A DNA stretch of 64,000 nt, from the NCBI RefSeq assembly GCF_022811925.1, contig NZ_CP065511.1:5271001-5335000 (forward strand), written 5' to 3'. The notes under the pieces were generated by a model. It had not been told where the DNA came from, made no database searches, and saw nothing but the letters and a program-made list of their open reading frames with translations. The position numbers and the translations under genes are program-made. This document shows, piece after piece, positions 8,301-24,224 of this stretch; within the stretch, counting starts at the first letter, position 1, and the number at the start of each line of letters is the position of its first letter. The DNA comes from Cytobacillus oceanisediminis. Lineage in GTDB: Bacteria > Bacillota > Bacilli > Bacillales > Cytobacillaceae.

Positions 8301-9350
8301 TCACCTATATTTCCCAAACCCAAGTGTGGATTGTCTTGTTACAAGACGTATATCCAGCGAGGTTTCATCAAGGAGCGATTTATCGTTCTCTAATCCCTCA
8401 ATTTTACGAATAAGTTTGTTAGTGGATACGACCCCGATGTCATAAATTGGCTGTTCAACTGTACTAATTTCCGGTTCTACCATTTCGGTTAGCTTGATTC
8501 CGTCAAAGCCGATTATAGCGACTTCCTTTGGAACCTGGTAGCCCATCAGCTTAAGAGCTTTGAGACAGCCGATCGCCATTAAATCATTGCCCAAGAATAT
8601 CCCATCGACATCCTTATGCTGGTTCATAAGGATTTGAGTTAGCATCTTGCCGCTTTCTAATGTAAAGTCTCCCTCGTAAACGATAACCGCATCCTCTGGA
8701 GATGCTATTCCATCCCTCACGGCCCTATCAGTGACAGTCTCCACATATCCTCGTTTCCGTTCAGACGATGGAGGGAACGACTTTGGCCCGCTGATATGGG
8801 CAATCTTCTTGCAGCCTACCTCAATCAAGTGATCAACAGCCAGCTTGGCACCTTTATAGTTATCTAATCCTATCGAGTCAAAGGTGTTATTTTCAGCTGC
8901 CCGGTCAATTCTTACAAACGGTATTTTTGATTTTTCAATAACCTTTACGACTCTTTCGCTCATTTCAAACGATGCCAGGATAAAACCATCGACATATCGG
9001 TTTTGAAGCTGCGTCCAAAAATGATCATCTTCCATATCCCCGGCTTGGGTATTTACTAAGATGATGCTATACCCTTTTGATTTCGCCACTTCTTCAATTG
9101 CCACGACAAGCTCCGGAAAAAACGGGTTTGTAATATCAGGGATAATCAGGGCAATCGTACGAGTTTTCTTTTTCGCTAATCCTCTCGCGATTTCATTTGG
9201 ATGATAATTTAGGCGCTCCATCACTTCACGAATCTTTAGCTCCGATTTTTGACTGATATATCCATTATTGTTTAAATACCTGGACACTGTCGCTACGGAT
9301 ACGCCTGCCTCCTTTGCAACATCTCGAATGGTTATTTGTTTCTCTCTCAC
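8301..9350 (-). CDS. LacI family transcriptional regulator of the ribosylglycohydrolase cluster
   Basis: DNA-binding regulator with an N-terminal LacI helix-turn-helix (about residues 6-26, with VAKEAGVSVATVSRYLN) and hinge helix near 50-58. The periplasmic-binding-like effector domain fills the rest (RTIALIIPDITNPFF onward). 349 residues is standard. Start is GTG at 9350 with GGAG seven bases upstream. It is the last gene of the cluster, so it would be autoregulated. The four TGTAACCGGTTACA-type palindromes before the two transcription units are its likely operators, though the same sequence satisfies the CcpA cre consensus. Effector unknown; a ribose derivative is a reasonable guess. Confidence 0.93.
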   Translation of the reverse strand: MREKQITIRDVAKEAGVSVATVSRYLNNNGYISQKSELKIREVMERLNYHPNEIARGLAKKKTRTIALIIPDITNPFFPELVVAIEEVAKSKGYSIILVNTQAGDMEDDHFWTQLQNRYVDGFILASFEMSERVVKVIEKSKIPFVRIDRAAENNTFDSIGLDNYKGAKLAVDHLIEVGCKKIAHISGPKSFPPSSERKRGYVETVTDRAVRDGIASPEDAVIVYEGDFTLESGKMLTQILMNQHKDVDGIFLGNDLMAIGCLKALKLMGYQVPKEVAIIGFDGIKLTEMVEPEISTVEQPIYDIGVVSTNKLIRKIEGLENDKSLLDETSLDIRLVTRQSTLGFGKYR

Positions 9351-9387
9351 GAAAATTCTCCTTTGAAAGGATTTTTCTGTTTTTAAA

Positions 9388-11511
9388 CTATTTGTTCGTT
9401 TCTTTTACATGGAAACGCTGGACTTTTGTTTCCCCTTTTTCAAGCAGGCCTAAGCCAATCATTCCATATTCATATTCCAAACCATCGAAATCCAGGACTG
9501 GCTCGCCATTGATTTCTACTTGAACAGCAGTTCCCTTGCTGACAGCTTTAAAATTATATATAGCTTCATGATTCCATCCATATGAAACTGTCTTTAAACG
9601 CTTAAAACCAAAGTTATTCTCTATTAATGAAACCTGATTGTTACCATCAAATCCTGCCCAATAATAACGTTCTGTTCCAATTGCTCTAAAAATTACCCCA
9701 TGGCTTTTACCGGAAACAGGCTGAAAGCTTATTTCCAGTTCAAGGTCACGGCCGTAATAGTTCCCTGTAAAGGAAGAAGCATCTTCCTCACCTGCAGCAG
9801 CCTTCATAAAACCATTTTCCAGTGTCCATTCACCACGGTGGTGAGCAAAAGGTGTTACACATTTAAATTCCACGGCTTGTTTGGCAAAATCGATGGAGTA
9901 ATCCGCATTCCCAAAGATTCGAAACTCGCCGATGTAAAACTTTCCAAATGAACGGTTATCTGCAGGGGAAGGACTCTCGACAATAAAGCCAACCTCGTCA
10001 ATCAATGCACCATCAGTTTCTGGTATCACAAATTCAATATCAAGCCATTCCTGATGGCTTAATGTGATACGGTTCAGCTTCAAGTCTTCCTTTGTCAAAC
10101 TATTGCGGACATAAGGAGTCAAATAAACATCTGCCCCTCCTTGCCATTTATCCATAAACACCTTTGCAGAAACCTTTTGTCCGCTGTATGCAGTAGGTGC
10201 AAAAGTCGGCTTATATTTTTCATCGTTGAACTCTTTACGGCGATAAAATGGCTTGTAAAATACTTTACTTGAATCACCTTCTATAAATCTGTCAAAAAGA
10301 ACGGACAATGAACCTCGGGCTACCTCAATCCCCACATCACTACATGGACGCAATAGCGTCTTAAAGCCATTATTAGTCTTAAAACCGTGAGTTGATCCCG
10401 GCAAAGTAAAATCCAAGTAAACTTCACCGTTTCGGACGCTTTCCACTAATCTCTGTGGAGCTTCCTGCCCATTTACTTGATAGCCAAGAACGGCAAGCTC
10501 CTTGCAGAAGGTTGGGATATCCAGCACATTCAAGTAGCCAGACACGCTCGATGTTGCGATCATATCGTTGATCGGCTTCCTATAATGTCCTGGAATTCCA
10601 TCAAGCCCGGCGAAAACTCCTGCAATGGTTCCGACATTTCCTGCATTACAATCCGTATCCCAGCTGCACATGGTAGCAATTTCAACTGTTCGAGCCAAAT
10701 CTCCCTTTCCATACATGAGGGCCAGGGCACATACCCCGGCATTCGGGATGATATGGCATACTCCAGTGTACTTATCATAACCCCACTCTTTTTCTAAATA
10801 CTGACGGCACTTTCGGAAATCCTCTTCCTCAGGGTGCTTCTGATAAAAATCAATCACAGCTTTCACGACAGCATAATACGTAGAATCTTTTGGAATTACG
10901 GACAATCCTGCTTCGATAATATCATCAATACTTTTAGCTGAAAAGGCTTTCGAAATACACGCTGCCATAAAACGCGCCCCATATAGCCCATTTTTATCAT
11001 GAGACACACTGGCCGCTATCTCTGCATAATCTGCTGCCTTTTGAATATTATTTGGGAACAGCAATCCCCATGTATCGATAAAAATCTGCCCGCCAATCTG
11101 CTCAGCCATAATGACGCCATTGACTTCAGCCGAACCAGACTGTGGTGCAGGGATGCCTTTTTTCAAATTCAAATACGCCGTATGTTCTGTGCTGATCTGA
11201 TCTCCACCCCACCAAAACATGCCGATTCCTTCACGCGAATAGTTTAACCACGCTCTCGCAACATCCTGGGGTGTCAGTTCCCGCCCGCGTGCGTCATCAA
11301 TTAATGCCCGGATAAAATAAACCGGACCATTTGCATCATCATCTGCAGAAAAGGTTTTATAATCCTTCACATACCCCCTGATATCACCATGAATTTCTAG
11401 GATTTTTTCATATGACCATTCATTTGGCTCCAGTGGTGCACCGAGCCGGATTCCAACATTCATTCCTAAGAAACCGGCATACACCCTTTCTAAATAGTTT
11501 TCAGGCAACAA
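9388..11511 (-). CDS. ADP-ribosylglycohydrolase-family protein with C-terminal lectin-like domain
   Basis: Large member of the DraG/ARH fold (about residues 1-350) joined to a C-terminal beta-rich region (about 380-707) resembling laminin-G/concanavalin-type domains. In the hydrolase part the N-terminal GDAxG motif is altered to VGIRLGAP, but the acidic SADDDA and the C-terminal WDTDCNAGN, which supply metal ligands, are kept. I start at TTG 11511, nine bases after AGGAG; TTG 11520 directly abuts that site. No signal peptide, so it acts in the cytoplasm. The likely role is cleavage of an N- or O-riboside, with the C-terminal domain helping bind a glycan-like substrate (inference). Confidence 0.82.
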   Translation of the reverse strand: MLPENYLERVYAGFLGMNVGIRLGAPLEPNEWSYEKILEIHGDIRGYVKDYKTFSADDDANGPVYFIRALIDDARGRELTPQDVARAWLNYSREGIGMFWWGGDQISTEHTAYLNLKKGIPAPQSGSAEVNGVIMAEQIGGQIFIDTWGLLFPNNIQKAADYAEIAASVSHDKNGLYGARFMAACISKAFSAKSIDDIIEAGLSVIPKDSTYYAVVKAVIDFYQKHPEEEDFRKCRQYLEKEWGYDKYTGVCHIIPNAGVCALALMYGKGDLARTVEIATMCSWDTDCNAGNVGTIAGVFAGLDGIPGHYRKPINDMIATSSVSGYLNVLDIPTFCKELAVLGYQVNGQEAPQRLVESVRNGEVYLDFTLPGSTHGFKTNNGFKTLLRPCSDVGIEVARGSLSVLFDRFIEGDSSKVFYKPFYRRKEFNDEKYKPTFAPTAYSGQKVSAKVFMDKWQGGADVYLTPYVRNSLTKEDLKLNRITLSHQEWLDIEFVIPETDGALIDEVGFIVESPSPADNRSFGKFYIGEFRIFGNADYSIDFAKQAVEFKCVTPFAHHRGEWTLENGFMKAAAGEEDASSFTGNYYGRDLELEISFQPVSGKSHGVIFRAIGTERYYWAGFDGNNQVSLIENNFGFKRLKTVSYGWNHEAIYNFKAVSKGTAVQVEINGEPVLDFDGLEYEYGMIGLGLLEKGETKVQRFHVKETNK

Positions 11512-11541
11512 TTTACTCAACTCCTGGTCCCCAAAGTTCTT

Positions 11542-12690
11542 TTAAAGAATGTTTTTTCTTTTTTCATTAAGCTGCAGATCTTGTTCAATAATCAGCCTGG
11601 CAGTCGATGAAAATTGGTCAGCTGTCTGGATTAAATTCATTTTGTTCGTTTCCTGTAAAAGCTCAACGTCCTCAGAACGAATAACACTGTCACCGTACAT
11701 TGCACCTAAAATGACACCGGCCATTACCCCGATGGAATCTGTATCACGGCCAGAGTTAATGCCATCTATAATGGAGCCGTAATAATCACCATCGTTTAAC
11801 ACCATAAACGCCAGCGCCATTGGCAGCTCTTCAATGGAGAAAAGCCTGCTTGGTGTATAGTGATTTGAAGGAACACCAACCTTCTCAATTTTACGGTGAA
11901 CATCGTCTTTCATTGGCGAATATTTTTCAATCACATTTTGGAATGTGGCAATAACTGTATCCATATCTGCCTTTTCAGAACGTAATTTCGTAGCAGCTTC
12001 TGTTAAATCACGAATCGCATTCTTTGTTCCATCCTTAGCAAAATAGAGGGCTGTCTCAACAATTTCATCAACTGTCACATTTTCTTCAAACGCCTTTGCC
12101 ACACAAGCTGCCAGCACCCCGGCCGCTTCCAGGCCGTAGCTGCTTTGATGTCCCATTGCAAACAAAATCGCTTCATCATATGCAGCCTTCGGATTTCCGG
12201 CATTGACAATTCCAACAGGTGCAATATACATCGCAGCCCCACAGTTGATCATATTGCCAATTCCGCCTTCACGCGGCTCACAATTGGCTAATACATGGCG
12301 CATGAAAATATATTTTTCCGGGTAAAAAAGTCGGTCGATAATTTGTGCTTCTCTGCCAAACTCAGGGATATACGTTTTTCTGAAAGCCATTTCCTTCACA
12401 AATTCGTTCCCCATGTCATATGCATCTAAATGTCTTTTTTCTTTGTTATACACGTTGATGAGAGCAACAGTCATAAGAGTATCGTCAGTAACTGTACCGT
12501 TGCCCCTTTTCCTGCCTAAATTCATATCAGCAGGATAATCTTCCTTGTACCATTTGGTACGGAGTGTCTCAACCCTCTTATACATTTTTTTAATCTCTTC
12601 ATAACTTAATTTTTCAACAGGTGCTCCCATTGCATCCCCTAGTGCCGTGGATATAACAACACCTCTAACTCGTTCTTTAAAAGTAACCAT
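11542..12690 (-). CDS. ADP-ribosylglycohydrolase family protein
   Basis: About 382 residues, DraG/ARH fold, which removes ADP-ribose or ribose-like groups using two metal ions (usually Mg). All core motifs are intact: GDAMGAP near 19, TVTDDTLM near 70 and GRDTDSIGVMAG near 320. The start is ATG 12690 (MVTFKER) with AGGGAG eight bases upstream; the longer frame from TTG 12717 encodes that ribosome site. It is followed closely by the larger paralogue. Sequence cannot tell whether the substrate is an ADP-ribosylated protein or a small riboside; the sugar transporter and ribokinase in the operon favour a small molecule. Confidence 0.88.
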   Translation of the reverse strand: MVTFKERVRGVVISTALGDAMGAPVEKLSYEEIKKMYKRVETLRTKWYKEDYPADMNLGRKRGNGTVTDDTLMTVALINVYNKEKRHLDAYDMGNEFVKEMAFRKTYIPEFGREAQIIDRLFYPEKYIFMRHVLANCEPREGGIGNMINCGAAMYIAPVGIVNAGNPKAAYDEAILFAMGHQSSYGLEAAGVLAACVAKAFEENVTVDEIVETALYFAKDGTKNAIRDLTEAATKLRSEKADMDTVIATFQNVIEKYSPMKDDVHRKIEKVGVPSNHYTPSRLFSIEELPMALAFMVLNDGDYYGSIIDGINSGRDTDSIGVMAGVILGAMYGDSVIRSEDVELLQETNKMNLIQTADQFSSTARLIIEQDLQLNEKRKNIL

Positions 12691-12763
12691 ATGAAGAACT
12701 CCCTTTTTTCTACACAATTCGCTTTTGTGTATTTTTTAATCTATTCCACATAGAGCGTAAAAA

Positions 12764-13654
12764 TCAGTCTTTGACTCCACCCTCAAAAGCACCCTTCGCA
12801 TAGTACTTTAGAATCAACGGATAAATCAGCAGTAAAGGTACAACCGAGATGATTATCGTTCCTGCTTGCAGGGAGGCAAAATCAAGGGTTGCTATTTGAT
12901 CATAGGATAGGAAGTTTTGCGCTCCTAGCAGAGATGTATTATCACGTTCTACTACAAATTGCCGAAGAACAAGCTGCAGCGGCCATTTGCCAGTGTCCGT
13001 TAAGTAGATTGTCGCTCGGAAGTATTCGTTCCAGTGATAAACTCCATAAAACAGACCCATTGTTGCCAAAGCTGGCTTGGATAAAGGCAGCATGATTTTT
13101 GTGAAGATACGGAAGTGCCCAGCCCCATCCATACGGGCTGCTTCCAAAATACTTTCAGGAACATCTTCAAAAAATCTCATCATGATAAACAAGTAAAAAA
13201 TATTTATGGTCTTATAAAGGATGAGGGACGCATACGTATCCAGCAATCCCAGGTTTTTCACCAGTAAGTATTCAGGAATTAATCCTGGTTCGAATACCAT
13301 GATGACAATTAAGAAAATCATGACAAAATTCCGGCCGGGAAATTTCGTTCTTGCCAGCACATAGGCTGTCATTGCAGTAAGCAATAGATTCACGGCTGTA
13401 CCCACAATGGTTATTAATAAGGTATTAAAAATACTTTTTATAATTAGCGGGTTTGATAATAGAATTTTATAGTTGATGAGTGAAAATCCTTCAGGTATTA
13501 TTCCCAGGCCGCTTAGCTTATGGACCTTGAGAGGATCTGATAACGACATTGCTAGTAAGTGAAGAAGCGGAACTAGCACTGTTAATGAAATTAAAAACAA
13601 AATGCTGTAAATAATAATGGTTGAAACACTCAATTTTTTTAATTTATTCATCAT
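12764..13654 (-). CDS. Carbohydrate ABC transporter permease (CUT1, LplC/YtcP-like)
   Basis: Inner-membrane permease with about six helices. The EAA loop, which docks the ATPase, is seen as ESILEAARMDGAGHFRIF near residue 190. 296 residues from ATG 13654, which has AGGAGGT seven bases upstream; the ORF extends upstream only through that site. It overlaps the end of the companion permease unit by spacing (11 bases). No ATPase gene is in the cluster, so, as for many CUT1 systems in Bacillus, a shared MsmX-type ATPase elsewhere in the genome probably powers it (inference). Confidence 0.92.
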   Translation of the reverse strand: MMNKLKKLSVSTIIIYSILFLISLTVLVPLLHLLAMSLSDPLKVHKLSGLGIIPEGFSLINYKILLSNPLIIKSIFNTLLITIVGTAVNLLLTAMTAYVLARTKFPGRNFVMIFLIVIMVFEPGLIPEYLLVKNLGLLDTYASLILYKTINIFYLFIMMRFFEDVPESILEAARMDGAGHFRIFTKIMLPLSKPALATMGLFYGVYHWNEYFRATIYLTDTGKWPLQLVLRQFVVERDNTSLLGAQNFLSYDQIATLDFASLQAGTIIISVVPLLLIYPLILKYYAKGAFEGGVKD

Positions 13655-13665
13655 CGTCCCACCTC

Positions 13666-14565
13666 CTACCAAACACCTTTACCTGTAAATCGTTTTGAGA
13701 TAAAGTGTGTACTCAAAATTAAGATAACCCCAATTACACCTTTGAAAAGGCTCGCTGCCGTTGCATAAGCATATTGGCCGTTTAAGAGACCGATTCGATA
13801 TACATAAGTGTCTAAAATGTCGATTACGCTGATGACAGAAGTGTTCATCATATTAAAGACCTGGTCAAAACCGGCATTCATGAAGAATCCCAGATTTAGA
13901 ATAAAGACTGTCATGATTGTTGAAGTTAAAGACGGCAGCGTGATGTATCTCATTTGCTGTATTTTAGATGCCCCGTCAATTTTGGCTGCTTCATAGAGAG
14001 AAGGACTTATTTTTAGAATGGCTGCCAAGTAAATAATGGAATCCCATCCCGCACTGCGCCATATTTCCTGGAACACCAATACCCAGCGGATATGGTCCTT
14101 ACTTGTCATGAAATCAAGTGAAGGCATATTGAAAAAGCTGCGAATCACGTTGACTCCGCCATCTTCCGGATTCAGCAATGCGATCCAGATTCCCGCAATA
14201 ACGACCCATGATAAAAAGTGAGGAAGGTAAACAATTGACTGTACATATTTTCTAAACTTCCCGACTCTTACTTCATTGATCAATAATGATAAAATAATCG
14301 GAATTGGAAAGAAGAATACAATCTTCATCACACTAATAATTATGGTATTTTTTAAAACATCCAGAAAGGCTGGGGAGCTAAATAGAACCTTAAAATGCTT
14401 CCATCCGACCCAAACATTATCACCGATAATCCGGTAATCCTGAAATGCCAGCTTCATTCCGATTAATGGAACGACGTGGAAGATCGAAAAATAAAGGAGG
14501 GCTGGAAAAAGCATAAGATAGAGGACCCAGCTTGATTTAATTTGCTTCAGTATGCCCTTTTTCAT
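13666..14565 (-). CDS. Carbohydrate ABC transporter permease (CUT1, LplB/YteP-like)
   Basis: 299 residues, six predicted helices. The EAA motif reads SLYEAAKIDGASKIQQM near residue 190. The start ATG has AAGGAG upstream and lies 29 bases inside the end of the ribokinase gene, so the two are translationally coupled. Pairs with the following permease and with the lipoprotein binding protein encoded at 19.5-21.0 kb. The LplB/LplC subgroup typically carries oligosaccharides or glycosides. Confidence 0.92.
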   Translation of the reverse strand: MKKGILKQIKSSWVLYLMLFPALLYFSIFHVVPLIGMKLAFQDYRIIGDNVWVGWKHFKVLFSSPAFLDVLKNTIIISVMKIVFFFPIPIILSLLINEVRVGKFRKYVQSIVYLPHFLSWVVIAGIWIALLNPEDGGVNVIRSFFNMPSLDFMTSKDHIRWVLVFQEIWRSAGWDSIIYLAAILKISPSLYEAAKIDGASKIQQMRYITLPSLTSTIMTVFILNLGFFMNAGFDQVFNMMNTSVISVIDILDTYVYRIGLLNGQYAYATAASLFKGVIGVILILSTHFISKRFTGKGVW

Positions 14566-15463
14566 CTTTATACTCCTTTTCCTTTACAAATTGAGTCACA
14601 TCATTTCGCTTGGGCATTCCCGTTTGAGCACCCTTTTTAGTGACCGATAAACCAGCAGCTATGTTGCCAAAACGTATGCTGTCTTCAAGGCAGTTCCCTT
14701 CTGCAATGGCAACTGCGAAAGCTCCTGAAAAGGTATCTCCAGCTCCAGTTGTATCAACCGGAATCACCTTAATGGAAGGAACTAATTTGATCTCTGTTCC
14801 ATCAAAGAAACGAACCCCCTCTGAACCGCACGTAATGATTAATTTATTTGGATGCTTTTCAAGCAGCTCTTCCATTGAATCATTCGTGTTAAACACTAAT
14901 TTGTACTCGTGTTCATTCGGTGTGACATAGGTCACCTTGTTAATCAGCTCTTGACTGAGTGTTTGTGCCGGCGCCGGGTTGATAATAATCGTTTTTCCTT
15001 GTTCATAAAGGAGCGGAACCAGATACTCAATCATGTCTAACGGTGTCTCGAGCTGAAATACAATCACATCGTAGTTCAGAAGCTCTGATGCAGCGTTTTT
15101 TACATAGTCAACGTTGGTATGTGTATTTGCACCAGGTACCACAATGATGCGATTTTCACTTTGACAAAGCTCAATAAACGCTGCTCCTGTAGGCAATCCT
15201 TTTACAGATTGAAGATTTACAAGATTGATATTCTCCTTTTCCAGCTTTTTGATAATCATATCACTATTCTCATCATCACCAACCGATCCGAATAAGGATA
15301 CATCACCGCCAAGACGGGCAGCTGCCACAGCTTGATTGGCCCCCTTGCCGCCAATGGATAAAAAGAAATTCTCACCCAGGACGGTTTCTCCTAATTTAGG
15401 CAGTACCTCGCTTTCAATAAAATAATCCATATTGATACTTCCAACAACGGCTATTCTCTGCAT
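14537..15463 (-). CDS. Ribokinase / PfkB family sugar kinase
   Basis: Phosphorylates ribose (or a related pentose) at O5 using ATP. PfkB signatures: GGKGANQAVAAARLGG near residue 38-53 and DTTGAGDTFSGAF near 245, containing the catalytic aspartate and anion hole. N-terminus VVGSINMDYF binds sugar. The start is uncertain; I take the ATG at 15463 (MQRIAVVG), with AGGA eight bases upstream, over TTG 15481. The C-terminus overlaps the next gene by 29 bases. In this cluster it would capture ribose set free by the glycohydrolase-family enzymes and feed the pentose phosphate pathway. Confidence 0.88.
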   Translation of the reverse strand: MQRIAVVGSINMDYFIESEVLPKLGETVLGENFFLSIGGKGANQAVAAARLGGDVSLFGSVGDDENSDMIIKKLEKENINLVNLQSVKGLPTGAAFIELCQSENRIIVVPGANTHTNVDYVKNAASELLNYDVIVFQLETPLDMIEYLVPLLYEQGKTIIINPAPAQTLSQELINKVTYVTPNEHEYKLVFNTNDSMEELLEKHPNKLIITCGSEGVRFFDGTEIKLVPSIKVIPVDTTGAGDTFSGAFAVAIAEGNCLEDSIRFGNIAAGLSVTKKGAQTGMPKRNDVTQFVKEKEYKDEKGHTEAN

Positions 15464-15473
15464 GTTCATCATC

Positions 15474-15785
15474 CTAATCAATCAGTATATTCATTAACGG
15501 TGCATGCTGCTGTGCCCCATATACATCCCGGTCTCCAACTGTTCCAGAGGAGATATCTCTTAAAATCGTAATTTTAATTCCAAGTGCCTGATCATAGAAA
15601 ACGAGATGATCAATCTGGCCCTCAGTGAGGTTATACAACTCACAAATAGTTTGTTTATTGATTTTTCCTGAATTCTTGACTCGCTCATAAACTTCCTTGG
15701 AATCAAATAAAATATCGAATGTCAGCTCAAATGGTCCTGCGTTTTTACTTCGTAATACTTTAGCTAGTTCAAATAAAGCGGCCAT
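15474..15785 (-). CDS. DUF4387 domain protein
   Basis: 103 residues, soluble, covering the whole DUF4387 domain (LAKVLRSKNAGPFELTFDI near the start, then DRDVYGAQQHAP near the end). This domain occurs as a separate small protein next to DUF1446/AtuA proteins or fused to them, and its biochemical role is not known to me. Start ATG has AGGGGATG upstream. It follows the AtuA-like gene by 12 bases and probably forms a complex with it (inference from the known gene pairing). Confidence 0.88.
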   Translation of the reverse strand: MAALFELAKVLRSKNAGPFELTFDILFDSKEVYERVKNSGKINKQTICELYNLTEGQIDHLVFYDQALGIKITILRDISSGTVGDRDVYGAQQHAPLMNILID

Positions 15786-15797
15786 GTTTTCATCCCC

Positions 15798-17156
15798 TTA
15801 CAAATACTCAATAACAAATGGGCTTTCAGTGATTTCCATTAGGTGATAGAGAGAAAACTCGTACACAGGCCCAAACTCTACATCACTTGGTGCAAATGGA
15901 AAGGCTAAATTTCCAGCTGTTGATTTCCGATTCTCATATCCGTAATGAAGAAATGTCGATCTTACACTCGAGCAAATACTGTTTGCAAGTTCCTGTGTCT
16001 TGGCAACCACTTCAAACATGACACCAATCTCATGTCCATGGAATGGTGTGCATTCTTTTGAACCAAGCACCCCATTTTTTCCATAATTATAGAAGTGGAT
16101 AGAATAATCTTCTTCCGGGATGTCCTCGTAATAATCCCTTACCTGCTCCATCACAAGCTCCTCTATCTCTTCGATCTTTCCTACTAAAATCGGGTCACGG
16201 ACACCTGCGATGACAAAGGTTCTATAGGCAACCTTTCGTGCACCTTCCAGCTTGATGAAATATTGATTATTTTTTAGCAGTTTACTATTCTTAACCTCGA
16301 CAACCCCGTCACTTACTTGTGTAAACTCACATTGACTAAGATCAAGGATGATGCCTGGTCCATGTAAAATATATGGATGTTCTTTTTCGTAAAAAGTATG
16401 AGCACTCACACTAATCGGCGAACATTTGCGTATTGGATTCAAGGATTGAACAGTGAAGGAATCCTCCTTTAATGTTCCAACGATGCAATCCTTCGTTGTA
16501 CCTGGTTCAGCACATAGCGCCCCGCATTCTAAAATTTTCCCAAGATGATAAGCCAGCCCAGGATCTTTGCCGTGGTAAATTCCAACTGCCGCAAATGGCG
16601 ATGGATCATATGCTCTTCCACAGACAACAATGTCTGCTCCGTTTTCAAGAGCCTCCAAAATGGGCTCGTGTCCCATCTGAGCAACAATGTTGTTTGTTTC
16701 TTGGATGACTTCATCTGTAAGAGCTGGAATGTTTGGCGTTAGAGGGTTAATTCGGCCCTCATGGTTTGCTTTTATGATTTCCTCCTGTGTAAAGTCGGAC
16801 CAAATCACGGCAATTCTAGCTGTTAAGCTGCGTTCTGCCAGGATTTCTTTAATAATATCCAGCGTCCACTCCATATGCGGCTTGGCGCCGGCTCCGCCAG
16901 CAGATCCTATAACAATGGGAATGTCACGGGGAACACCATTTTTAATAATGATATCCAAATCCTTTTTGGTTGCCCGGCGGCTCACAATCGCGACACCCGC
17001 ACCAAGTTTATGCGGACCTGCATCAGTCGATCCTGCATCCACAACAATTCCATGAACCTTTTGATTGTACTCAAAGGCCCTGTTAAAAGACTCTTCCGGA
17101 AACCCATATCCTAATATTCCGCACGGAGAAACAATTCGTACATCACTGCTAGTCAT
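15798..17156 (-). CDS. AtuA-like / DUF1446 family protein
   Basis: 452 residues. Matches the acyclic terpene utilisation AtuA family (DUF1446): an N-terminal CGILGYG segment, VDAGSTDAGPH near 40, IGSAGGAGAKPH near 85 and VVCGRAYDPSPFA near 175. The original AtuA belongs to geranyl-CoA degradation, but many homologues sit in sugar or acid catabolic clusters, so the name should not be read as a terpene pathway here. First gene of the second transcription unit, behind a TTGACA promoter and two operators. With DUF4387 it could process the non-sugar half of the imported compound (inference). Confidence 0.88.
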   Translation of the reverse strand: MTSSDVRIVSPCGILGYGFPEESFNRAFEYNQKVHGIVVDAGSTDAGPHKLGAGVAIVSRRATKKDLDIIIKNGVPRDIPIVIGSAGGAGAKPHMEWTLDIIKEILAERSLTARIAVIWSDFTQEEIIKANHEGRINPLTPNIPALTDEVIQETNNIVAQMGHEPILEALENGADIVVCGRAYDPSPFAAVGIYHGKDPGLAYHLGKILECGALCAEPGTTKDCIVGTLKEDSFTVQSLNPIRKCSPISVSAHTFYEKEHPYILHGPGIILDLSQCEFTQVSDGVVEVKNSKLLKNNQYFIKLEGARKVAYRTFVIAGVRDPILVGKIEEIEELVMEQVRDYYEDIPEEDYSIHFYNYGKNGVLGSKECTPFHGHEIGVMFEVVAKTQELANSICSSVRSTFLHYGYENRKSTAGNLAFPFAPSDVEFGPVYEFSLYHLMEITESPFVIEYL

Positions 17157-17208
17157 ATTATTAACCTCTTTTTATTTGTCTGTTTTCTTATTGATAAAAC
17201 GCTCAACA

Positions 17209-17222
17209 TGTAACCGGTTACA
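17209..17222. promoter_or_regulatory. LacI-type operator, proximal to atuA-like gene
   Basis: Perfect 14-base palindrome TGTAACCGGTTACA, 53 bases upstream of the AtuA-like start. Likely bound by the cluster's LacI regulator; it also fits the CcpA cre consensus TGWAANCGNTNWCA. Confidence 0.85.
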
Positions 17223-17262
17223 CACTTTCTCAAAAAAATATGGTTATAAAAACCAAAGGACA

Positions 17263-17276
17263 TGTAACCGGTTACA
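17263..17276. promoter_or_regulatory. LacI-type operator, distal to atuA-like gene
   Basis: Second perfect TGTAACCGGTTACA. Its centre is 54 bases from the first. It begins about 14 bases downstream of the -10 box, a position that would block initiation or early elongation. Confidence 0.85.
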
Positions 17277-17289
17277 CATTTATATTCTT

Positions 17290-17319
17290 ATGGTACCGTT
17301 TAACGCCAGTCCCTGTCAA
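17290..17319 (-). promoter_or_regulatory. Sigma-A promoter of the atuA-like operon
   Basis: Minus strand: perfect -35 TTGACA (17319-17314), 18-base spacer, -10 TACCAT (17295-17290, four of six matches). The two operators lie directly downstream. Confidence 0.65.
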
Positions 17320-17449
17320 CCAATTATTATCTCAATGTGCACAGTTTTATATTGCAATGATTTCAATAGAGTTAAAGATAAGAAGGCACGATCACATATT
17401 CCTCTTTTCTTAGGGTGAATCGTGCATCCTTTAATAACATTATTAGACT

Positions 17450-18490
17450 TTAAGCATTTTCATAGCTGGCCAATTTGGCAGCAACATCTTTTAGTGATGT
17501 CCCCTGTAAACTGGGAATACAAATTCCTTTAATTTTATCTAATGCTTCTTTCCACGTTTCCGGGACCGCACTTGCACCCTGCGAGGCTCCAGATAGAGCA
17601 CCTACCATTGCAGGCATACTATCGGACTGTTTCGGCAGTAATGATGCCAGCTGAATTCCTTTTTGCAGGTCTCCTTCTGTACTTAGGAAAATAGCATAGG
17701 CTACTGCGAGTGTTTCAGGAGCAATATTGGCATAGTTATAGACCGCATTGACTACTCGCTTTTGCCATAGCGGTATGGCTGCAAATCCGTCCCCATTGGT
17801 TTCTTCCAGTACATTTAGGGCAATCTCCATTTTTCTGCGAATCCAGGTATTTTCCGGTACGTATTTTAATCCTTCTTCCACTATTTCCTGCGGGGAAGCA
17901 CCTGATAGGGCTGCAGCTATACTGGCAGCCATTGCCTGGGCTGCATATACACCATCTTCAGCATTTGTGATAGAAGCCATTTTTTGTGCTGTACTTGCAG
18001 CTTTTTCAGGCTGGTTTTTATAAATAAGACCGATTGGAACCGCACGTGAAACAGAGCCATCATCATAGTGATGCGGATTGTCATTGCCAGATGCCGGTGG
18101 AAGGATTCCTTTTTTGATGTTTTCAATAGAAGCTCTTTCACTTACTCCGCTCCAAATTTCCTGCTCAGCTTCTACTATGTATTGCATCCAGCCATGAAGT
18201 AATTTTTCTTCCGTAATTTCATTTCCGCAATCCAAAATCATTTGTGCCGCGATGATTGCAAATTCTGTATCATCCGTTCCGCAGAAATCTAAAATTTCCT
18301 CGCTCAAGGCATGTGTGAAGGGTAATGAAATTTTATTAATCCGATGCCGGTCCGTAATTTGGCTAAAGCTCCATAAACGATTTCTCCGCTTAGGAGGAAG
18401 TACGAGCGATCTATGATACATCGCAGCAAAGCCTGCCGAATCACCCATTGCCATCCCGAGAAGAGAACCGTAAATTTTATCATAAGACAT
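17450..18490 (-). CDS. ADP-ribosylglycohydrolase family protein, degenerate metal site
   Basis: About 346 residues from ATG 18490, whose A overlaps the upstream stop (TAATG) and which has AGGAGG nine bases before it. The longer frame to 18604 runs into the upstream gene and is not used. DraG/ARH fold with MAMGDSAG and GTDDTEF kept. In the C-terminal motif, where paralogues read GRDSDT or GRDTDS, this one reads PKQSDS, so one metal-binding aspartate is lost. It may be a regulatory or binding subunit, or use one metal. Translationally coupled to its intact paralogue, which suggests they act as a pair. Confidence 0.85.
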   Translation of the reverse strand: MSYDKIYGSLLGMAMGDSAGFAAMYHRSLVLPPKRRNRLWSFSQITDRHRINKISLPFTHALSEEILDFCGTDDTEFAIIAAQMILDCGNEITEEKLLHGWMQYIVEAEQEIWSGVSERASIENIKKGILPPASGNDNPHHYDDGSVSRAVPIGLIYKNQPEKAASTAQKMASITNAEDGVYAAQAMAASIAAALSGASPQEIVEEGLKYVPENTWIRRKMEIALNVLEETNGDGFAAIPLWQKRVVNAVYNYANIAPETLAVAYAIFLSTEGDLQKGIQLASLLPKQSDSMPAMVGALSGASQGASAVPETWKEALDKIKGICIPSLQGTSLKDVAAKLASYENA

Positions 18491-19482
18491 TACTCTTTTC
18501 CTCCTATTACTACGTTTGTTAAATCTCTGGCAATATCCCGGACATCTATCCCTTTCATGGCCAAAACACAACGGCCGCGAATAATATTTATCCGGTCCTG
18601 CCAATCCTTTGGTACAATATCGGCACCATGTAATGCTCCTGCCATTGCACCATTCATAGCCGCAATCGTATCAGAGTCTCTTCCAATATTGACTCCGCCA
18701 AGTACAGCAGGAATATACTCACCCTTCGCTGCCGCAAACACACCATAGGCGAGCGGAATAGCTTCCGGCCCCATATCGGCCCAAGGATAGTAGAAAATGG
18801 AGATTTTATTGTAGAGTTCTTCAATAGCCTCCTGAACATCTGTATACTTTGTACCGATTTCTACAGCCTCGCTGATTTTCCGGTATGCCCAGGAATCCTT
18901 AGGAATACAGTTCATCCCTGTTTCTATTACCTCTTGCCAATCATTTCCCGTCATGGCATAAGCAACACTTGCGGCTACAGCTTGACCGCAGTATACTCCA
19001 TCCCGGTCGTGACTGACTCTTGCTTCAATCTCAGCTAATCTGGCCGCTTCTTCCGGATCGCCTGCACAATAAATACCAATCGGAGATATTCTCATGGCAA
19101 CTCCGTCACTCCACATTTGGTGGTTATCGACTCCTGTTGCAGGGGCAGCCAGCCCTTTTCGAAGATTAAAGATAGCCTCTACTTCACTAAAGCCTCCGCC
19201 TTTAAAGCCGCCTTCCTGAGAAACAAGATAGTTAGTCCATTCTCTTGTCATATCCTCATAGTTTAATTTATTTCCATATTTTAAGATAATTTTTGCTGTC
19301 AGCATTGTGTATTCGGTATCATCTGTTCCAACTGGATCATCATTGACAAAGTCATTGATCCAGCCATATTTTTCCCGTATCTCTTCCAATGCCAAGCCTT
19401 CGGTTGGAGCTCCTAATGCGTCACCCACTGATAATCCTATTAAACAGCCATATACTCGCTTATACCATTGTTCGAAATCCAA
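18490..19482 (-). CDS. ADP-ribosylglycohydrolase family protein
   Basis: About 330 residues, DraG/ARH fold with intact motifs: GDALGAPTEG near 18, GTDDTEYT near 50 and GRDSDTIAAMNGA near 270. I start at TTG 19482 (reading MDFEQWYKRV), preceded by GGGGG about eight bases away. The upstream GTG at 19539 lies inside a terminator hairpin and would add a hydrophobic tail not expected for the family. It follows the binding-protein gene past a strong hairpin, so it is probably expressed at a lower level than the binding protein. Confidence 0.85.
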   Translation of the reverse strand: MDFEQWYKRVYGCLIGLSVGDALGAPTEGLALEEIREKYGWINDFVNDDPVGTDDTEYTMLTAKIILKYGNKLNYEDMTREWTNYLVSQEGGFKGGGFSEVEAIFNLRKGLAAPATGVDNHQMWSDGVAMRISPIGIYCAGDPEEAARLAEIEARVSHDRDGVYCGQAVAASVAYAMTGNDWQEVIETGMNCIPKDSWAYRKISEAVEIGTKYTDVQEAIEELYNKISIFYYPWADMGPEAIPLAYGVFAAAKGEYIPAVLGGVNIGRDSDTIAAMNGAMAGALHGADIVPKDWQDRINIIRGRCVLAMKGIDVRDIARDLTNVVIGGKE

Positions 19483-19510
19483 ATGAGATCCCCCTATACT
19501 AAAGTTTCCT

Positions 19511-19548
19511 AAAAAAATAGTGGAGAACAGAGTCTCCACTATTTTTTT
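19511..19548. terminator. Strong hairpin between binding-protein gene and downstream hydrolase genes
   Basis: 15-base stem AAAAAATAGTGGAGA (19512-19526) with its complement (19533-19547), six-base loop, T-tract on both strands. It probably acts as a partial terminator or mRNA stabiliser, so that more binding protein than enzyme is made. Confidence 0.85.
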
Positions 19549-19552
19549 AGTA

Positions 19553-21031
19553 TTATCTTAAATTTTTATTTGCAAGTTCTGTAACCTGTTCTCCGCCTGC
19601 CTCATTCCACTCTTTAACGAATTTATCGAAATCAGAGATTGGACGCTTACCAGTAATGATGTCCGTTGTAAATTCCATATACAGGTTTTGCATAGCATCC
19701 CAGTTAGCAACATATTCTTCTGGTATTATGAAGCTATTGTCTTCTGCATAAAATTCTTCTGCTGAATTAAGTGACTTTTCTGCAGATTCACTTAATAATG
19801 GTGTCGTTTCATCTACTGGAGTAGCTGGTGTATAATCAGCCGGCTCCCAGAATCTAGCAAACCATTCACTGTAATATTTATCAGTAAGCTGCAGCTTTCC
19901 ATCCGCTACGTTATAATGCTCGCCTTCGAACCCGAATCGGTCGATCATTTGTCCTTCAGGGCTCGCCATATAATCTAGAATCTTAAACACAAGATCCTTA
20001 TTCTCAGAATTAGCAGAGATTGCAATACCTCTTGATTCTTTTGTAACATCCGTAGCACCAAAGCCTTGATATTCGCCCTTTGCAGGCGGCAGCATGACTA
20101 GTGAAGCTTCTTCTCCGCTCACTTGAACCATTTTGCCTTCATAAATATCAATTACTTTTCCAGCTGTACCAGGGATGATCGCAGTTTCTCCATCAAAGAA
20201 TGCTTTTTCTTTCGTATCCCATTGCTTTGTTAAGTATTGAGGATCCAAAAGACCTTCTTTATATAGCTTATTATAGAATTCAAGCTTTTCTTTTTGCTGC
20301 TTTGAAACTCTTGCGTATTCGTAAGAGCCATCTTCTTTTTGCAGCCAAGTCTTATTGATCCCAAAAGCCATATCAAACATATAGTCGATTTCTGCAATGT
20401 CGCCGGCAACTGTAATGGCATATTTAGGTTTATCGCCGCCTGGCTGTTTTTCGACTAATTCTTTGAAAAATGAATAGTAATTGTCCACAGTTGGATTTTC
20501 CATTAGTGCTTTAGAAGTTTCCATTTGGTTAAACCAGTCTCCTCTAATGACAGGAACTTTAGGAGCAAGCGGTTTAATCCATAGTAAGTAAGGATAATTT
20601 GCAAGTCTTTTTTCGTTAAAAGGCTGAATGATATCCTTTAGATATTTTGAATCCTTGATGTAAGGTCTTAAATCCTCTAATAAACCTTGATCAGCCATGG
20701 CTTGATCTCCGCCTTGGAAATAAATCATGTCAGGAATATCTCCGCTATTGAGCAGCAAGTTTAACTTCTCAGCATAGTTGCCTTGCGGGAGGTCGACTAA
20801 TTCAAAATTAACTTTAATATTTTCATCTTCAAGGAGCCCTTTTTCAATCGCATCATAATATTTTTCTGATACAGGGTTTGAGCTGTTATCATCCTTCATT
20901 ACAACACGGATTGTTGTGGCTCCCCCTTTATCTTTTTTATCTCCCTGACCTGCTTCCTCTTTGTTTGTACAAGCCGCCAGTAAACCCAAAACTAAAATGA
21001 GGCTTAATATGGCTAAAAAAGATTTTCTCAT
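19553..21031 (-). CDS. ABC transporter substrate-binding lipoprotein (CUT1, LplA-like)
   Basis: 492 residues. Signal peptide with lipobox LLAAC, cysteine at residue 21, then a charged linker and a two-lobed solute-binding fold (LPQGNYAEKLNLLLNSGDIPD segment region near 105). Anchored outside the membrane, it delivers a sugar-like ligand to the two permeases encoded at 12.8-14.6 kb. It is the first gene behind two operators. The long linker and size match the LplA/YtcQ subgroup, which binds glycosides or oligosaccharides. Ligand not predictable from sequence. Confidence 0.93.
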   Translation of the reverse strand: MRKSFLAILSLILVLGLLAACTNKEEAGQGDKKDKGGATTIRVVMKDDNSSNPVSEKYYDAIEKGLLEDENIKVNFELVDLPQGNYAEKLNLLLNSGDIPDMIYFQGGDQAMADQGLLEDLRPYIKDSKYLKDIIQPFNEKRLANYPYLLWIKPLAPKVPVIRGDWFNQMETSKALMENPTVDNYYSFFKELVEKQPGGDKPKYAITVAGDIAEIDYMFDMAFGINKTWLQKEDGSYEYARVSKQQKEKLEFYNKLYKEGLLDPQYLTKQWDTKEKAFFDGETAIIPGTAGKVIDIYEGKMVQVSGEEASLVMLPPAKGEYQGFGATDVTKESRGIAISANSENKDLVFKILDYMASPEGQMIDRFGFEGEHYNVADGKLQLTDKYYSEWFARFWEPADYTPATPVDETTPLLSESAEKSLNSAEEFYAEDNSFIIPEEYVANWDAMQNLYMEFTTDIITGKRPISDFDKFVKEWNEAGGEQVTELANKNLR

Positions 21032-21155
21032 TACTTTTCCCCCTAAAAAGTTATTTTTTCATATTCTAATTGAATCGATGAATGATTGCTCCCCCCTTGC
21101 CATTCATCATATTAGGAGATTGATAGTATAAAAGCTAACTAGAATCACAATAATG

Positions 21156-21169
21156 TGGAACCGGTTACA
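21156..21169. promoter_or_regulatory. LacI-type operator, imperfect copy
   Basis: TGGAACCGGTTACA: one change from TGTAACCGGTTACA; the right half-site is intact. 125 bases upstream of the binding-protein start. Confidence 0.75.
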
Positions 21170-21253
21170 TAATTGACTATAAAAGGCTGTTCCTAACAAT
21201 TCTGAATCAATAGATGTTGTTAGAGCTTGATACCAAATTATTATACACTCTTA

Positions 21254-21267
21254 TGTAACCGGTTACA
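21254..21267. promoter_or_regulatory. LacI-type operator, perfect copy
   Basis: TGTAACCGGTTACA extended to ATGTAACCGGTTACAT. Its centre is 98 bases from the imperfect copy, a spacing that would allow looping. Confidence 0.85.
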
Positions 21268-21604: not shown

Positions 21605-22915
21605 CTATAACTTCAACTCATAAACCTTCCGCGGCCGCCCGCGCTGTCCAGGCTGTTCTTCACCGGTCACTTTGGCAAGCCCGAGCCGCTCGAGCTCCGC
21701 CATAATCCTCCTCGAGTTTCGTTCGGTGTTTTTCAGCCATCTTGAGACTTCCTGCGCAGTGACAATCTTTTTTTGATAATGCCTTGAAAGGTATTCGATT
21801 TTGGATACAATTGCAGGATTGATTTTGGCGCCCTTAAAGCGTTCTTCCCATTCCTCTCCCCAAATGCGCTGCTGGTAGGAAACCGCCTCTTCGCCGCTTT
21901 CCGAAAGGTGTTCCTTAATTTGTTTGGTTTCATCGACACTAACCACAGGCGAAGCTTTCTGATCCCTGGCATATTGGAGGGCTAGCCGGACATTCTGCTC
22001 TGCATCATATGCCGTCAGCCCGTAGCCGACACCGATTCTCACCTTCAGCTTGCTGTGGATTTTCGCTTCTTCAATGAGCGAGTACATGGAGGCTTCCTGA
22101 AAATGCATATCCATTTCGCCCCGGGTTGTATAAATAAAAAATAGACCATCCCCGATCTGCACAAAGGAGCCTTGGACTTTTTCGGCATAATCAAGCATGA
22201 CCTGCTTAATCTCCAGCTCATGCCGCTTCATTTCATAGGTAAAATGCTGCTCTTCCAGAGAGCTTGCAGAGTGAACGACTTCCATTCCCATAATCGCTAT
22301 CTGGGAGCGCTTATACCAATTGGACTGGCCTCTTTCCCTTAGGTAGCGCAGTACAAGTTTTATGGCTACAGGAGATGGGACCACCCGGTAGCATGGGATT
22401 CCCTGTTCCCTCAGCCGGTCATGAACTTCCTGGACACATGTCAATGCGACCTCCGTTTTTCCTTCCTCAAAAAGCTTCTTATGAAAGCGGATGATTTCCT
22501 CGGCTGGTTCGTACTCATTATAGGAAAAAGCCTGAATGTTTAAATCTCCTAAAAAATATGTATTCTTTAGTGTATCCAGCTCGGATTCCTGAATGGTGTC
22601 CAGGCTTGCCTGCTGAAATCCGCCTTCTCTGATATGAGCTTCAAGGAGTGTTCCCAGCAGACTGGAGCCATATAGAGGGGGATAATGGGCGTTTTCTTCC
22701 CCAATCAGCCCTTTTGAACGCGCGTAATAATAAGGGGCCTGTCCGGAGAAAAACCATAAATCGATTTCCGTCTGATGTTCCCTGATAATCTTTTCCGTTT
22801 CTTTTGTTTCCTTATAAATGTATGGAATCATCTCAAGCTCGCTGTATTCACGCGACAAGGCAAGAATGTGTCCAACGGAGTCTCCCGGCCCCACTACCCC
22901 AACGCGAATCTTCAT
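21605..22915 (-). CDS. Transcriptional regulator with ligand-sensing, cyclase-like and winged-helix regions
   Basis: 436 residues. N-terminal part (1-200) begins RVGVVGPGDSVGHIL and looks like an alpha/beta ligand-binding fold. The middle (about 205-335) has a pattern like a degenerate nucleotidyl-cyclase/GGDEF fold (FVQIGDGLFFIYTT, then RIGVGYGLTAYDAEQNVRLAL). The C-terminal 75 residues form a winged helix followed by a basic tail, GQRGRPRKVYEL. The GGDEF catalytic signature itself is absent, so cyclic-nucleotide synthesis is not supported. It lies just after a carbamoylase-type hydrolase (21 bases), so it likely controls the hydrolase/abg cluster. I do not know a named family for it. Confidence 0.75.
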   Translation of the reverse strand: MKIRVGVVGPGDSVGHILALSREYSELEMIPYIYKETKETEKIIREHQTEIDLWFFSGQAPYYYARSKGLIGEENAHYPPLYGSSLLGTLLEAHIREGGFQQASLDTIQESELDTLKNTYFLGDLNIQAFSYNEYEPAEEIIRFHKKLFEEGKTEVALTCVQEVHDRLREQGIPCYRVVPSPVAIKLVLRYLRERGQSNWYKRSQIAIMGMEVVHSASSLEEQHFTYEMKRHELEIKQVMLDYAEKVQGSFVQIGDGLFFIYTTRGEMDMHFQEASMYSLIEEAKIHSKLKVRIGVGYGLTAYDAEQNVRLALQYARDQKASPVVSVDETKQIKEHLSESGEEAVSYQQRIWGEEWEERFKGAKINPAIVSKIEYLSRHYQKKIVTAQEVSRWLKNTERNSRRIMAELERLGLAKVTGEEQPGQRGRPRKVYELKL

Positions 22916-22936
22916 TCTTTTCCACCTGCTTCTTCT

Positions 22937-24175
22937 TTATATACTTGTTTCAATTTTTAAATATTGAGCGATAATCTCTGTTCCCAGTTCCAGATCTTCA
23001 ATAGAGGCAAACTCCTCAGGATGGTGGCTGAGCCCATTTTTGCAGGGAATGAATAAAAGTCCTGAAGGCCATTTGGCCGCCATATTCATGACATCATGGC
23101 CGGCACCGCTTTCAAGCACCAATGCTTTGTATCCTAAAGATTCACCTGAATGCTGTAATTCCCGCATCACTGTCTCATCCAGCTGAACGGATGGATTATG
23201 AACAAGCGTTTTTACTTCTATTTTAACACCAAAAGAGTCAGAAAGCTGATGGCATTTTTCACGGATAAGCTCCTCCATTTCTTTTTTCAGCGAATCGTCC
23301 ACACTGCGGATATCGACTCCAAGCTCAACCGTTCCGGGAATCACATTCATGGCGTTCGGCTTTAATTCAAAGGTGCTTGCTGTTGCCACAATCGGCACCG
23401 CATTGGAATCCGATAAAGAAAGAGCTGTCTCTGATATGAATGGAACGAGAGGTGCAGCCGCGACAAAGGCATCCTTTCGTTTGCCCATTGGCGTCGTTCC
23501 TGTGTGCCCCATCTGTCCGTTGATGATTACCTTTAAGCGGATTGGGCAGGCAACTGCCGTCACCGCTCCAAAGTTTGCCCCGGCATCTTCCACTCTAGTT
23601 CCCTGCTCAATGTGAAGCTCGATAAAACTTTTTAAAGCTGTCTCCGGCCGTTCAGCTTCTTCAATTGCATCCCATGACAGTCCCATGTCCTCGACTGCCT
23701 GGCGGATGGTGATGCCATCTTCATCAGTTACACCTTCCACTTCTTTCTTATTAAGAAGGCCGCTCATAGCCTTGCTGCCAATGGTTGATACGCCAAAACG
23801 AGATGATTCCTCAGATGCAAAACAAATGACTTCAATTGGTGAAGCAGGTTCGAATCCTTCTTCTTTCAATTTCTTTACGGCAGCCAGACCGCAAAGGACA
23901 CCGGCCACTCCATCATAGCCTCCTCCGCCTTTTACGGTATCCACATGAGAGCCTACGGCAACAGCAGGTAATGAATCTTCTGCTTCCCAGCGGGCAATCG
24001 CATTCCCCGCTTCATCTCTTTCAACCTTCAAACCGATATCCTCAGCAATGGAAACAAATACATCAATGGCGCGCCACTCTTCTTTCGTGTAGCCTAGCCG
24101 GCAGAACCCTTCAGCCTGGTTCATGTTGTCTGTTAAATTTAACGCTTTCAGATGCTTATCCAACCATTCTTTCAT
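22937..24175 (-). CDS. Zn-dependent hydrolase, hydantoinase/carbamoylase family (M20)
   Basis: About 412 residues. Motifs: GSHVDTVKGGGGYDGVAGV near 78-96, FASEESSRFGVSTIGSKAM near 124-142, ELHIEQGTRVE near 190, HTGTTPM near 222 and a late HHPEE. Cleaves N-carbamoyl or related amide bonds. I choose ATG 24175, ten bases after GGAGG; GTG 24184 and TTG 24181 are too near the site. A paralogue of the 3481-4737 gene, but in another operon. The position between an M20 amidohydrolase and the regulator suggests a second amide-nitrogen pathway. Confidence 0.9.
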   Translation of the reverse strand: MKEWLDKHLKALNLTDNMNQAEGFCRLGYTKEEWRAIDVFVSIAEDIGLKVERDEAGNAIARWEAEDSLPAVAVGSHVDTVKGGGGYDGVAGVLCGLAAVKKLKEEGFEPASPIEVICFASEESSRFGVSTIGSKAMSGLLNKKEVEGVTDEDGITIRQAVEDMGLSWDAIEEAERPETALKSFIELHIEQGTRVEDAGANFGAVTAVACPIRLKVIINGQMGHTGTTPMGKRKDAFVAAAPLVPFISETALSLSDSNAVPIVATASTFELKPNAMNVIPGTVELGVDIRSVDDSLKKEMEELIREKCHQLSDSFGVKIEVKTLVHNPSVQLDETVMRELQHSGESLGYKALVLESGAGHDVMNMAAKWPSGLLFIPCKNGLSHHPEEFASIEDLELGTEIIAQYLKIETSI

Positions 24176-24200
24176 TTTCAACACTCCTCCCTTATCTAAA

Positions 24201-24224
24201 ATGAGGCAGATTGCTCTGCCTCAT
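24201..24224 (-). terminator. Hairpin between M20 amidohydrolase and carbamoylase genes
   Basis: ATGAGGCAG (24201-24209) pairs perfectly with CTGCCTCAT (24216-24224). A short T-rich stretch follows on the minus strand; probably a partial terminator inside the cluster. Confidence 0.65.

Follow-up and report, generated by a model that had tools for sequence, protein, structure and literature searches.

We examined a 64,000-nucleotide stretch of the Cytobacillus oceanisediminis genome (contig NZ_CP065511.1, positions 5,271,001 to 5,335,000), hereafter the window. At 8301-21031 on its minus strand lies a gene set of roughly 13 kb, in a genome of 5.58 Mb, which may serve the catabolism of a ribosylated acid. 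It combines four proteins with the ADP-ribosylglycohydrolase (ARH) fold, a ribokinase, an AtuA/DUF4387 protein pair, a CUT1-type sugar importer and a LacI-family regulator. All the genes named in an initial annotation, which had been made from the DNA alone, were recovered there by open reading frame (ORF) calls and Pfam. We rate the cluster as a catabolic sugar-conjugate operon in kind. Its genes and features are as follows, with SBP denoting the importer's solute-binding protein.

8301-9350, minus strand: LacI-family regulator (PF00356, 74 bits; PF13377, 89 bits)
9388-11520, minus strand: ARH_A, with the ARH fold at residues 5-354 and a CBM66-like C-terminal domain at about 538-710 (PF03747; fold search)
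11542-12717, minus strand: ARH_B, ARH fold with TDDT and GRDTDS intact (PF03747, 144 bits)
12764-13672, minus strand: CUT1 permease, MalG/UgpE side (PF00528; NCBIfam matches under cut-off)
13666-14565, minus strand: CUT1 permease, MalF/UgpA side (PF00528; NCBIfam matches under cut-off)
14537-15481, minus strand: ribokinase (PfkB kinase by Pfam; TIGR02152, 314.7 bits against a cut-off of 299.65)
15474-15785, minus strand: DUF4387 protein, CmlB homologue (PF14330, 132 bits; 9ERQ_B, E 5.3e-30)
15798-17156, minus strand: AtuA/DUF1446 protein, CmlA homologue (AtuA Pfam, 88 bits)
17209-17222, unstranded: LacI-type operator TGTAACCGGTTACA of the second unit (exact match)
17263-17276, unstranded: LacI-type operator TGTAACCGGTTACA of the second unit (exact match)
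17450-18490, minus strand: ARH_C, with degenerate C-terminal metal motif KQSDS (PF03747, 160 bits; start inferred from relatives)
18490-19539, minus strand: ARH_D, with TDDT and RDSDT intact (PF03747, 194 bits; start probably near 19482)
19509-19550, unstranded: hairpin with an 18-pair stem, between the SBP and ARH_D genes (consensus scan only)
19553-21031, minus strand: solute-binding lipoprotein (SBP) of the importer (PF01547, 64.7 bits)
21156-21169, unstranded: LacI-type operator with one mismatch, first unit (operator scan)
21254-21267, unstranded: LacI-type operator TGTAACCGGTTACA, first unit (operator scan)

The gaps between the genes and the positions of the operators suggest two transcription units. 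The first would comprise SBP, ARH_D and ARH_C, and the second AtuA, DUF4387, ribokinase, the two permeases, ARH_B, ARH_A and LacI. Gaps within the units are at most 49 bp (stop codons excluded) and several genes overlap, while about 290 bp lie between the units. The 18-pair hairpin is a possible attenuator, which would favour expression of SBP. Two palindromes of the TGTAACCGGTTACA type precede each unit, one of the four with a single mismatch. When up to two mismatches were allowed, four matches were found against 0.08 expected, and none of 100 shuffles reached four. The three exact copies of the palindrome in the genome are all at the cluster, so the LacI protein, which would bind these sites, probably controls the cluster alone. 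Outside the cluster, a one-mismatch operator occurs at C1:4601045; on visual inspection it lies between a small gene and one resembling malate dehydrogenase. Sites with up to two mismatches number 30 in the genome, about as many as the 24 of a reversed control pattern.

The initial annotation had called for a search for genomes with the same gene set. GTDB species genomes were scanned for exact peptide words from the window AtuA. This approach favours near relatives and yielded 60 further named loci (given L numbers here), mostly in Bacillaceae, Caryophanaceae and Paenibacillaceae with some in Clostridia. Cytobacillus oceanisediminis 2691 has an AtuA 98% identical to the window protein. Counting the window and using the best BLAST label, which needs just 25% identity anywhere in the DNA examined, the 61 window-type loci hold AtuA in 61, DUF4387 in 60, ARH_A in 59, each permease in 58 and SBP in 57. 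Less regular are ARH_B (50), ribokinase (45), LacI (25), ARH_D (21) and ARH_C (14). In both loci without ARH_A (L053 and L063), the contig stops either inside the SBP gene or after it, and the visible part of others, such as L050, L052 and L054, stops at ARH_C. The LacI labels of L079 and L081 (27-29% identity) probably mark other regulators, and the kinase label of L085 stands at 26%. Of 26 loci with a LacI label, AtuA and ARH_A, 24 have palindromes of the same type upstream of their first gene, the two exceptions being L079 and L081. Palindromes of any kind centred on CG number 68 in 30 upstream stretches, compared to 8.9 after base shuffling.

Among 193 genomes of the family, the 21 that carry an AtuA of at least 67% identity are precisely those with a full-length ARH_A, which argues that the cluster is no chance assembly. 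Three more of the 193 have an AtuA at 31-34% identity and no full-length ARH_A, and others have only weak AtuA matches. Four genomes carry a 39%-identical ARH_A and no close AtuA, and one carries two at 29%. Two further sets, L114-L133 (20 of 92 genomes with AtuA) and L139-L158 (20 stretches), were picked mostly by score and not randomly. Two loci labelled as other genera, L035 (Paenibacillus sp. FSL R5-0490) and L037 (Sporosarcina globispora DSM 4), sit inside the Cytobacillus-type AtuA group, and may reflect wrong labels or a transferred cluster.

The AtuA and DUF4387 proteins match both subunits of citramalate lyase, CmlA and CmlB, over their full length (PDB 9ERQ/9EVF, whose identity we took from the PDB names and titles). 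In the fold search, 9EVF was the only whole-length match listed for AtuA, and most other matches span residues 309-432. As in citramalate lyase, the two window genes are adjacent and the large subunit has the same predicted fold. The initial annotation had left the pair to handle the other half of the substrate, as if it had no known chemistry; the subunit matches support that role and make it specific, and they do not bear out the implied view of the chemistry. Relatives of the pair lie immediately 3' of glutamate mutase and methylaspartate ammonia-lyase in records from E. coli, Salmonella and Prevotella, and 14 of 19 AtuA loci from across the phylum are grouped with methylaspartate-pathway genes. 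In contrast to citramalate lyase operons, the window pair has no adjoining glutamate mutase, methylaspartate ammonia-lyase or fumarase.

A quick, midpoint-rooted tree of 92 AtuA rows placed the window protein in a clade of 62 rows (SH-aLRT 99). For this tree L113, with its AtuA in two pieces, was excluded, and only the last 470 residues of frames longer than 520 aa were used. ARH genes lie alongside AtuA in 60 of the 62 rows, and the other two are on truncated contigs. The ARH label changes four times on the tree compared to 25.5 times after shuffling, and none of 500 shuffles was that low. Next to this clade, on a long branch of unsure placement, are L139, L150 and L152, two of which have ARH genes. 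Besides a LacI-like gene and an importer, L139 contains ARH_A and ARH_D, an alpha/beta hydrolase and pieces of another sugar ABC importer; L152 contains three ARH genes. In the glutamate-pathway group, 168 columns are invariant (in at least 94% of 18 rows), of which 119 are retained in the window clade. Elsewhere, in L108 and L109, AtuA/DUF4387 and genes of the glutamate-mutase (methylaspartate) pathway occur together on large enterobacterial replicons that are recorded as plasmids, and the L109 replicon is typed as conjugative.

All four ARH proteins exceed the PF03747 cut-off of 26.2 bits (ARH_A with 179 bits, the others as listed), and a whole-genome search revealed no fifth PF03747 protein. 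With the metal-binding motifs of ARH3 and DraG taken as the reference, the motifs are distributed as initially described, intact in ARH_B and ARH_D and degenerate in ARH_C, and ARH_A is fused to a C-terminal beta domain. TDDT/GRDTDS is retained in all 50 loci with ARH_B, and TDDT/RDSDT in all 21 with ARH_D. ARH_C has KQSDS where RDxDT is expected, and the form KQ[SA]DS recurs in 14 of 14 C-type loci; judging from these residues, the protein is probably non-catalytic or altered. Its most likely start is 18490 (346 aa), which matches six of eight close Cytobacillus-type relatives, while the ARH_D start is probably about 19 codons downstream of the longest-ORF start. ARH_A has altered motifs (ADDDAN and WDTDCNAG), with GIRLG replacing the GD motif. 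The domain fused to it, initially described as lectin-like, appears CBM66-like by a fold search that hardly covered residues ~355-537. A search with ARH_A residues 1-355 returned 6017 bacterial relatives at E 1e-10 or better, with generic names among those listed; no ARH-kinase fusion was seen among the best 120 of the 6017, which carry PF03747 alone. In Paenibacillus sp. DMB20 (L076:16245-18366), ARH_A is split into two partial frames that overlap, which may point to a damaged gene or a faulty assembly.

ARH and DraG proteins are chiefly known for taking ADP-ribose off proteins. The closest solved structures to the window proteins, with which they share their fold, are indeed ARH3, ARH1 and DraG, and this favours a role in reversing protein ADP-ribosylation, with the genes grouped with transport genes for regulatory reasons. 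We give this explanation a very slim chance. ARH_A shares only 12-18% identity with these structures, has a CBM66-like domain and lies in an operon with an importer and a ribokinase, and the metal motifs are altered in both ARH_A and ARH_C. Moreover, four paralogues stand with an importer and a kinase under one local operator type, and Pfam scans found no ADP-ribosyltransferase among the cluster proteins.

The ribokinase call is based on TIGR02152, and the cluster kinase is the sole gene above the cut-off of this model in its genome. Five of seven scanned kinases from window-type clusters pass it. These fall into three sequence groups (the window and L090; L056; L040 and L041) and come from clusters of Paenibacillus (L040, L041), Lysinibacillus (L056) and C. 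citreus (L090) as well as the window. Ribokinase-like genes also lie within 6 kb of ARH_A in 8 of 22 loci without AtuA, a count that excludes L098 with its mere ARH_A fragment. Three of these eight loci (L091, L093 and L094) resemble near copies. As a control, none of the 19 phylum AtuA loci outside the window clade has a ribokinase-like gene within 6 kb (Fisher p 0.004 with relatedness ignored). All eight kinases near the AtuA-less ARH_A genes pass TIGR02152, as does the window kinase, and this speaks against the import of an ordinary furanose-containing oligosaccharide, for which the ARH proteins would be general furanosidases and the kinase would act on another sugar. That explanation also leaves the citramalate-lyase homologue unaccounted for, and Pfam scans of the window cluster returned no family of glycoside hydrolases; we regard it as distinctly improbable.

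The importer is clear by Pfam, with an SBP_bac_1 protein and two BPD_transp_1 permeases. A Pfam scan found no ATPase among the cluster proteins, which agrees, like the LacI regulator, with the initial annotation. A single genomic match to the MsmX/UgpC-type ATPase was found at E 1e-80 or better (C1:1495511), and it is 68% identical to the ATPase adjoining the Lysinibacillus cluster. An MsmX-type ATPase encoded elsewhere probably powers the importer. Weaker relatives of SBP include AlgQ1 and AlgQ2, and its sequence contains a lipobox-like LLAAC. The layout resembles CUT1/LacI sugar operons of Bacillota in its SBP, two permeases, LacI protein with palindromic operators and shared MsmX-like ATPase elsewhere, and the importer, LacI and ribokinase are ordinary parts. 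Unlike in those operons, the enzymes of the window are ARH-fold hydrolases and a citramalate-lyase homologue, without glycoside hydrolases. GntR-type regulators (cluster c0) occur in 17 loci, and the one scanned is GntR/FCD by Pfam.

We propose that the cluster is an inducible system for degrading an extracellular compound, namely the ribofuranoside of a branched hydroxy acid, and we put the probability of this at about 55%. The lipoprotein SBP and the two permeases would import the intact conjugate with the shared MsmX-type ATPase. In the cytoplasm, ARH_A, ARH_B and ARH_D would cut the ribosyl bond, where the CBM66-like domain of ARH_A may hold the furanose and ARH_C would be a likely non-catalytic partner of ARH_D. 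The ribokinase, as its curated family model predicts, would convert the released ribose to ribose 5-phosphate. The AtuA/DUF4387 pair would cleave the acid in the manner of citramalate lyase to acetate and pyruvate or a homologous 2-oxo acid, as judged from the 51% identical solved protein and the pathway context of its relatives. Finally, a LacI repressor acting at the four local operators would switch the set on. A compound that fits both sides of the cluster is O-ribosyl-citramalate or a citrate relative of it.

Several observations weigh against this proposal. The solved PDB chain groups with the E. coli and Salmonella proteins outside the window clade, which is why we term AtuA a homologue and not a proven citramalate lyase. 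Within the window clade, 18 AtuA columns are fixed differently, including Y50 to K, S220-G221-S222 to T-T-K, L255 to F and S422 to A. The separate clade and the changed columns indicate that the AtuA substrate may differ from citramalate, and the two new lysines (K50 and K222) would suit a more acidic substrate. The window kinase falls below the NF008353 (PRK11142) cut-off (258.4 against 341 bits), as do all eight kinases near other ARH_A genes, so the call rests on TIGR02152, and the clostridial-cluster kinases L081 and L085 are under that cut-off too. No nearby ribokinase was found in 14 of the 22 AtuA-less ARH_A loci, three of which are stretches of just 6-10 kb, nor was one found in the examined DNA of 16 of the 61 window-type loci. 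The latter shows that ribokinase is not an obligatory local part. The initially claimed import and breakdown of a riboside is nonetheless supported by gene context, namely the kinases of three sequence groups above the TIGR02152 cut-off, the 8 of 22 loci and the sole gene of this genome above that cut-off. The B. subtilis CBM66 is a fructan binder, and we know of no natural ribosyl-citramalate. A nucleobase-family permease in the staphylococcal triplets, treated next, also points to nucleosides and away from our proposal.

Excerpts of three papers on staphylococcal cassette islands list a run of three genes, for an ARH protein, a permease and a ribokinase, of the SERP2218-2216 type (PMC3637587, PMC3900703, PMC3321955). 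They tabulate these triplets as annotation, without function, and two of the three name the permease as nucleobase-family (PMC3637587, PMC3321955). The triplet resembles the window cluster in its row of ARH-family gene, transporter and ribokinase, and differs in having a single ARH of about 330 aa and a permease in place of the ABC importer, with no AtuA/DUF4387 in the tabulated parts. Together with the AtuA-less ARH_A loci, these triplets tie ARH proteins to ribose independently of AtuA. The E. coli yegTUV genes, whose functions are called unknown in passages of a paper on their regulator GgaR (YegW), likewise combine a predicted ARH protein, a sugar kinase, a transporter and their own regulator (PMC10819704). 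Their transporter is a predicted nucleoside:H+ symporter and their regulator is of the GntR family with ADP-glucose as the proposed effector, in contrast to the window cluster; there is one ARH, and those passages mention no AtuA/DUF4387 (PMC10819704).

These systems favour salvage of nucleosides or disaccharide nucleosides, such as ribosyl-adenosine from poly-ADP-ribose or ADP-ribose debris, with the lyase serving an unrelated co-imported acid: yegTUV pairs its predicted ARH protein with a predicted nucleoside symporter and sugar kinase (PMC10819704), and the islands pair theirs with a cytosine/purine-family permease and a ribokinase (PMC3637587, PMC3321955). ARH_A relatives are moreover paired with nucleoside hydrolases and ribokinase in L095 and L157. 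The former (L095:2198-16717) encodes a GntR-UTRA protein, a SIS protein, an importer, two ARH_A-type proteins, a PfkB kinase, a nucleoside hydrolase, a ribokinase and an adenine deaminase, and from its genes looks like a ribosyl-nucleoside salvage operon. The L157 locus has two nucleoside hydrolases, and a further ARH_A locus, L144, has a deoxyribose-phosphate aldolase (DERA); the genes of these three loci also count towards the ribose side of our proposal. However, Pfam scans of the window cluster found no nucleoside hydrolase, phosphorylase or base-handling gene, and its importer is of the CUT1 type and is not a nucleoside or nucleobase transporter. ARH_A is also present in 59 of the 61 window-type AtuA loci, so that acid and riboside handling go together. 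We therefore consider nucleoside salvage unlikely for the window cluster.

Esterases beside some loci hint at an ester in some natural forms of the compound. Genes of esterase cluster c2 occur at 10 of 60 loci, and all six scanned have PF00756. These PF00756 genes lie directly after LacI in L064, L066 and L074, divergently upstream in L038 and inside the gene run of L077 and L085, while L081 and L139 have alpha/beta hydrolases. If an ester bond joined the compound to citramalate or some other acid, its breakdown would begin with an esterase, and the ARH proteins would remove ribosyl groups. Yet the window cluster has no esterase and c2 genes are missing from the other 50 of 60 loci, which makes this explanation quite unlikely. 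By eye, the esterases at L064:20391-21344, L066:20403-21335, L074:20297-21346 and L038:6366-8873 have signal-peptide-like starts, and the one in L038 bears S-layer homology domains.

The initial annotation knew of no described pathway with this composition. Our search of the open-access literature found no work joining ARH, ribokinase and AtuA/DUF4387, and found neither DUF4387 nor citramalate lyase with AtuA; passages of PMC10434189 made no link between ARH and ribokinase. Within that search the claim holds for the full combination, whereas ARH beside ribokinase had already been printed as annotation in the staphylococcal excerpts. Within the open-access literature searched, two features are, as far as we could find, new: the combination of several ARH proteins with an ABC importer in one system, and the coupling of that system to a homologue of citramalate lyase.

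A broader reading of our proposal is that ARH-fold proteins act as small-molecule ribosidases in carbon catabolism, as part of a pathway for undescribed O-ribosylated acids of the citramalate (or citrate) type. We offer this tentatively and hold it somewhat doubtful. Under it, K50 and K222 of AtuA would fit one carboxylate more than in citramalate. Ribocitrin, a dextransucrase inhibitor from Streptomyces, is probably a ribose-citrate conjugate; if so, it would suggest that ribosyl hydroxy-carboxylic acids exist. With one ARH subgroup linked to ribokinase and importers, a small-molecule ribosidase role becomes directly testable. The AtuA/DUF4387 citramalate-lyase family would be extended beyond glutamate fermentation, and a gene set dedicated to a ribosylated acid is apparently maintained in many Bacillales and in some Clostridia.

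The cluster is preceded at 21605-27074 by an abg-like block with an AbgT transporter, two M20 amidohydrolases and a regulator-like protein without a Pfam match. We rejected this block as part of the system, as it adjoins the cluster in only five or six of 60 loci and has no operator matches. In two distant Bacillota, FGE-sulfatase-like PF03781 proteins adjoin the ARH/AtuA clusters (L084:13278-14237 and L152:6884-8953), and L086 has a protein in the same position.

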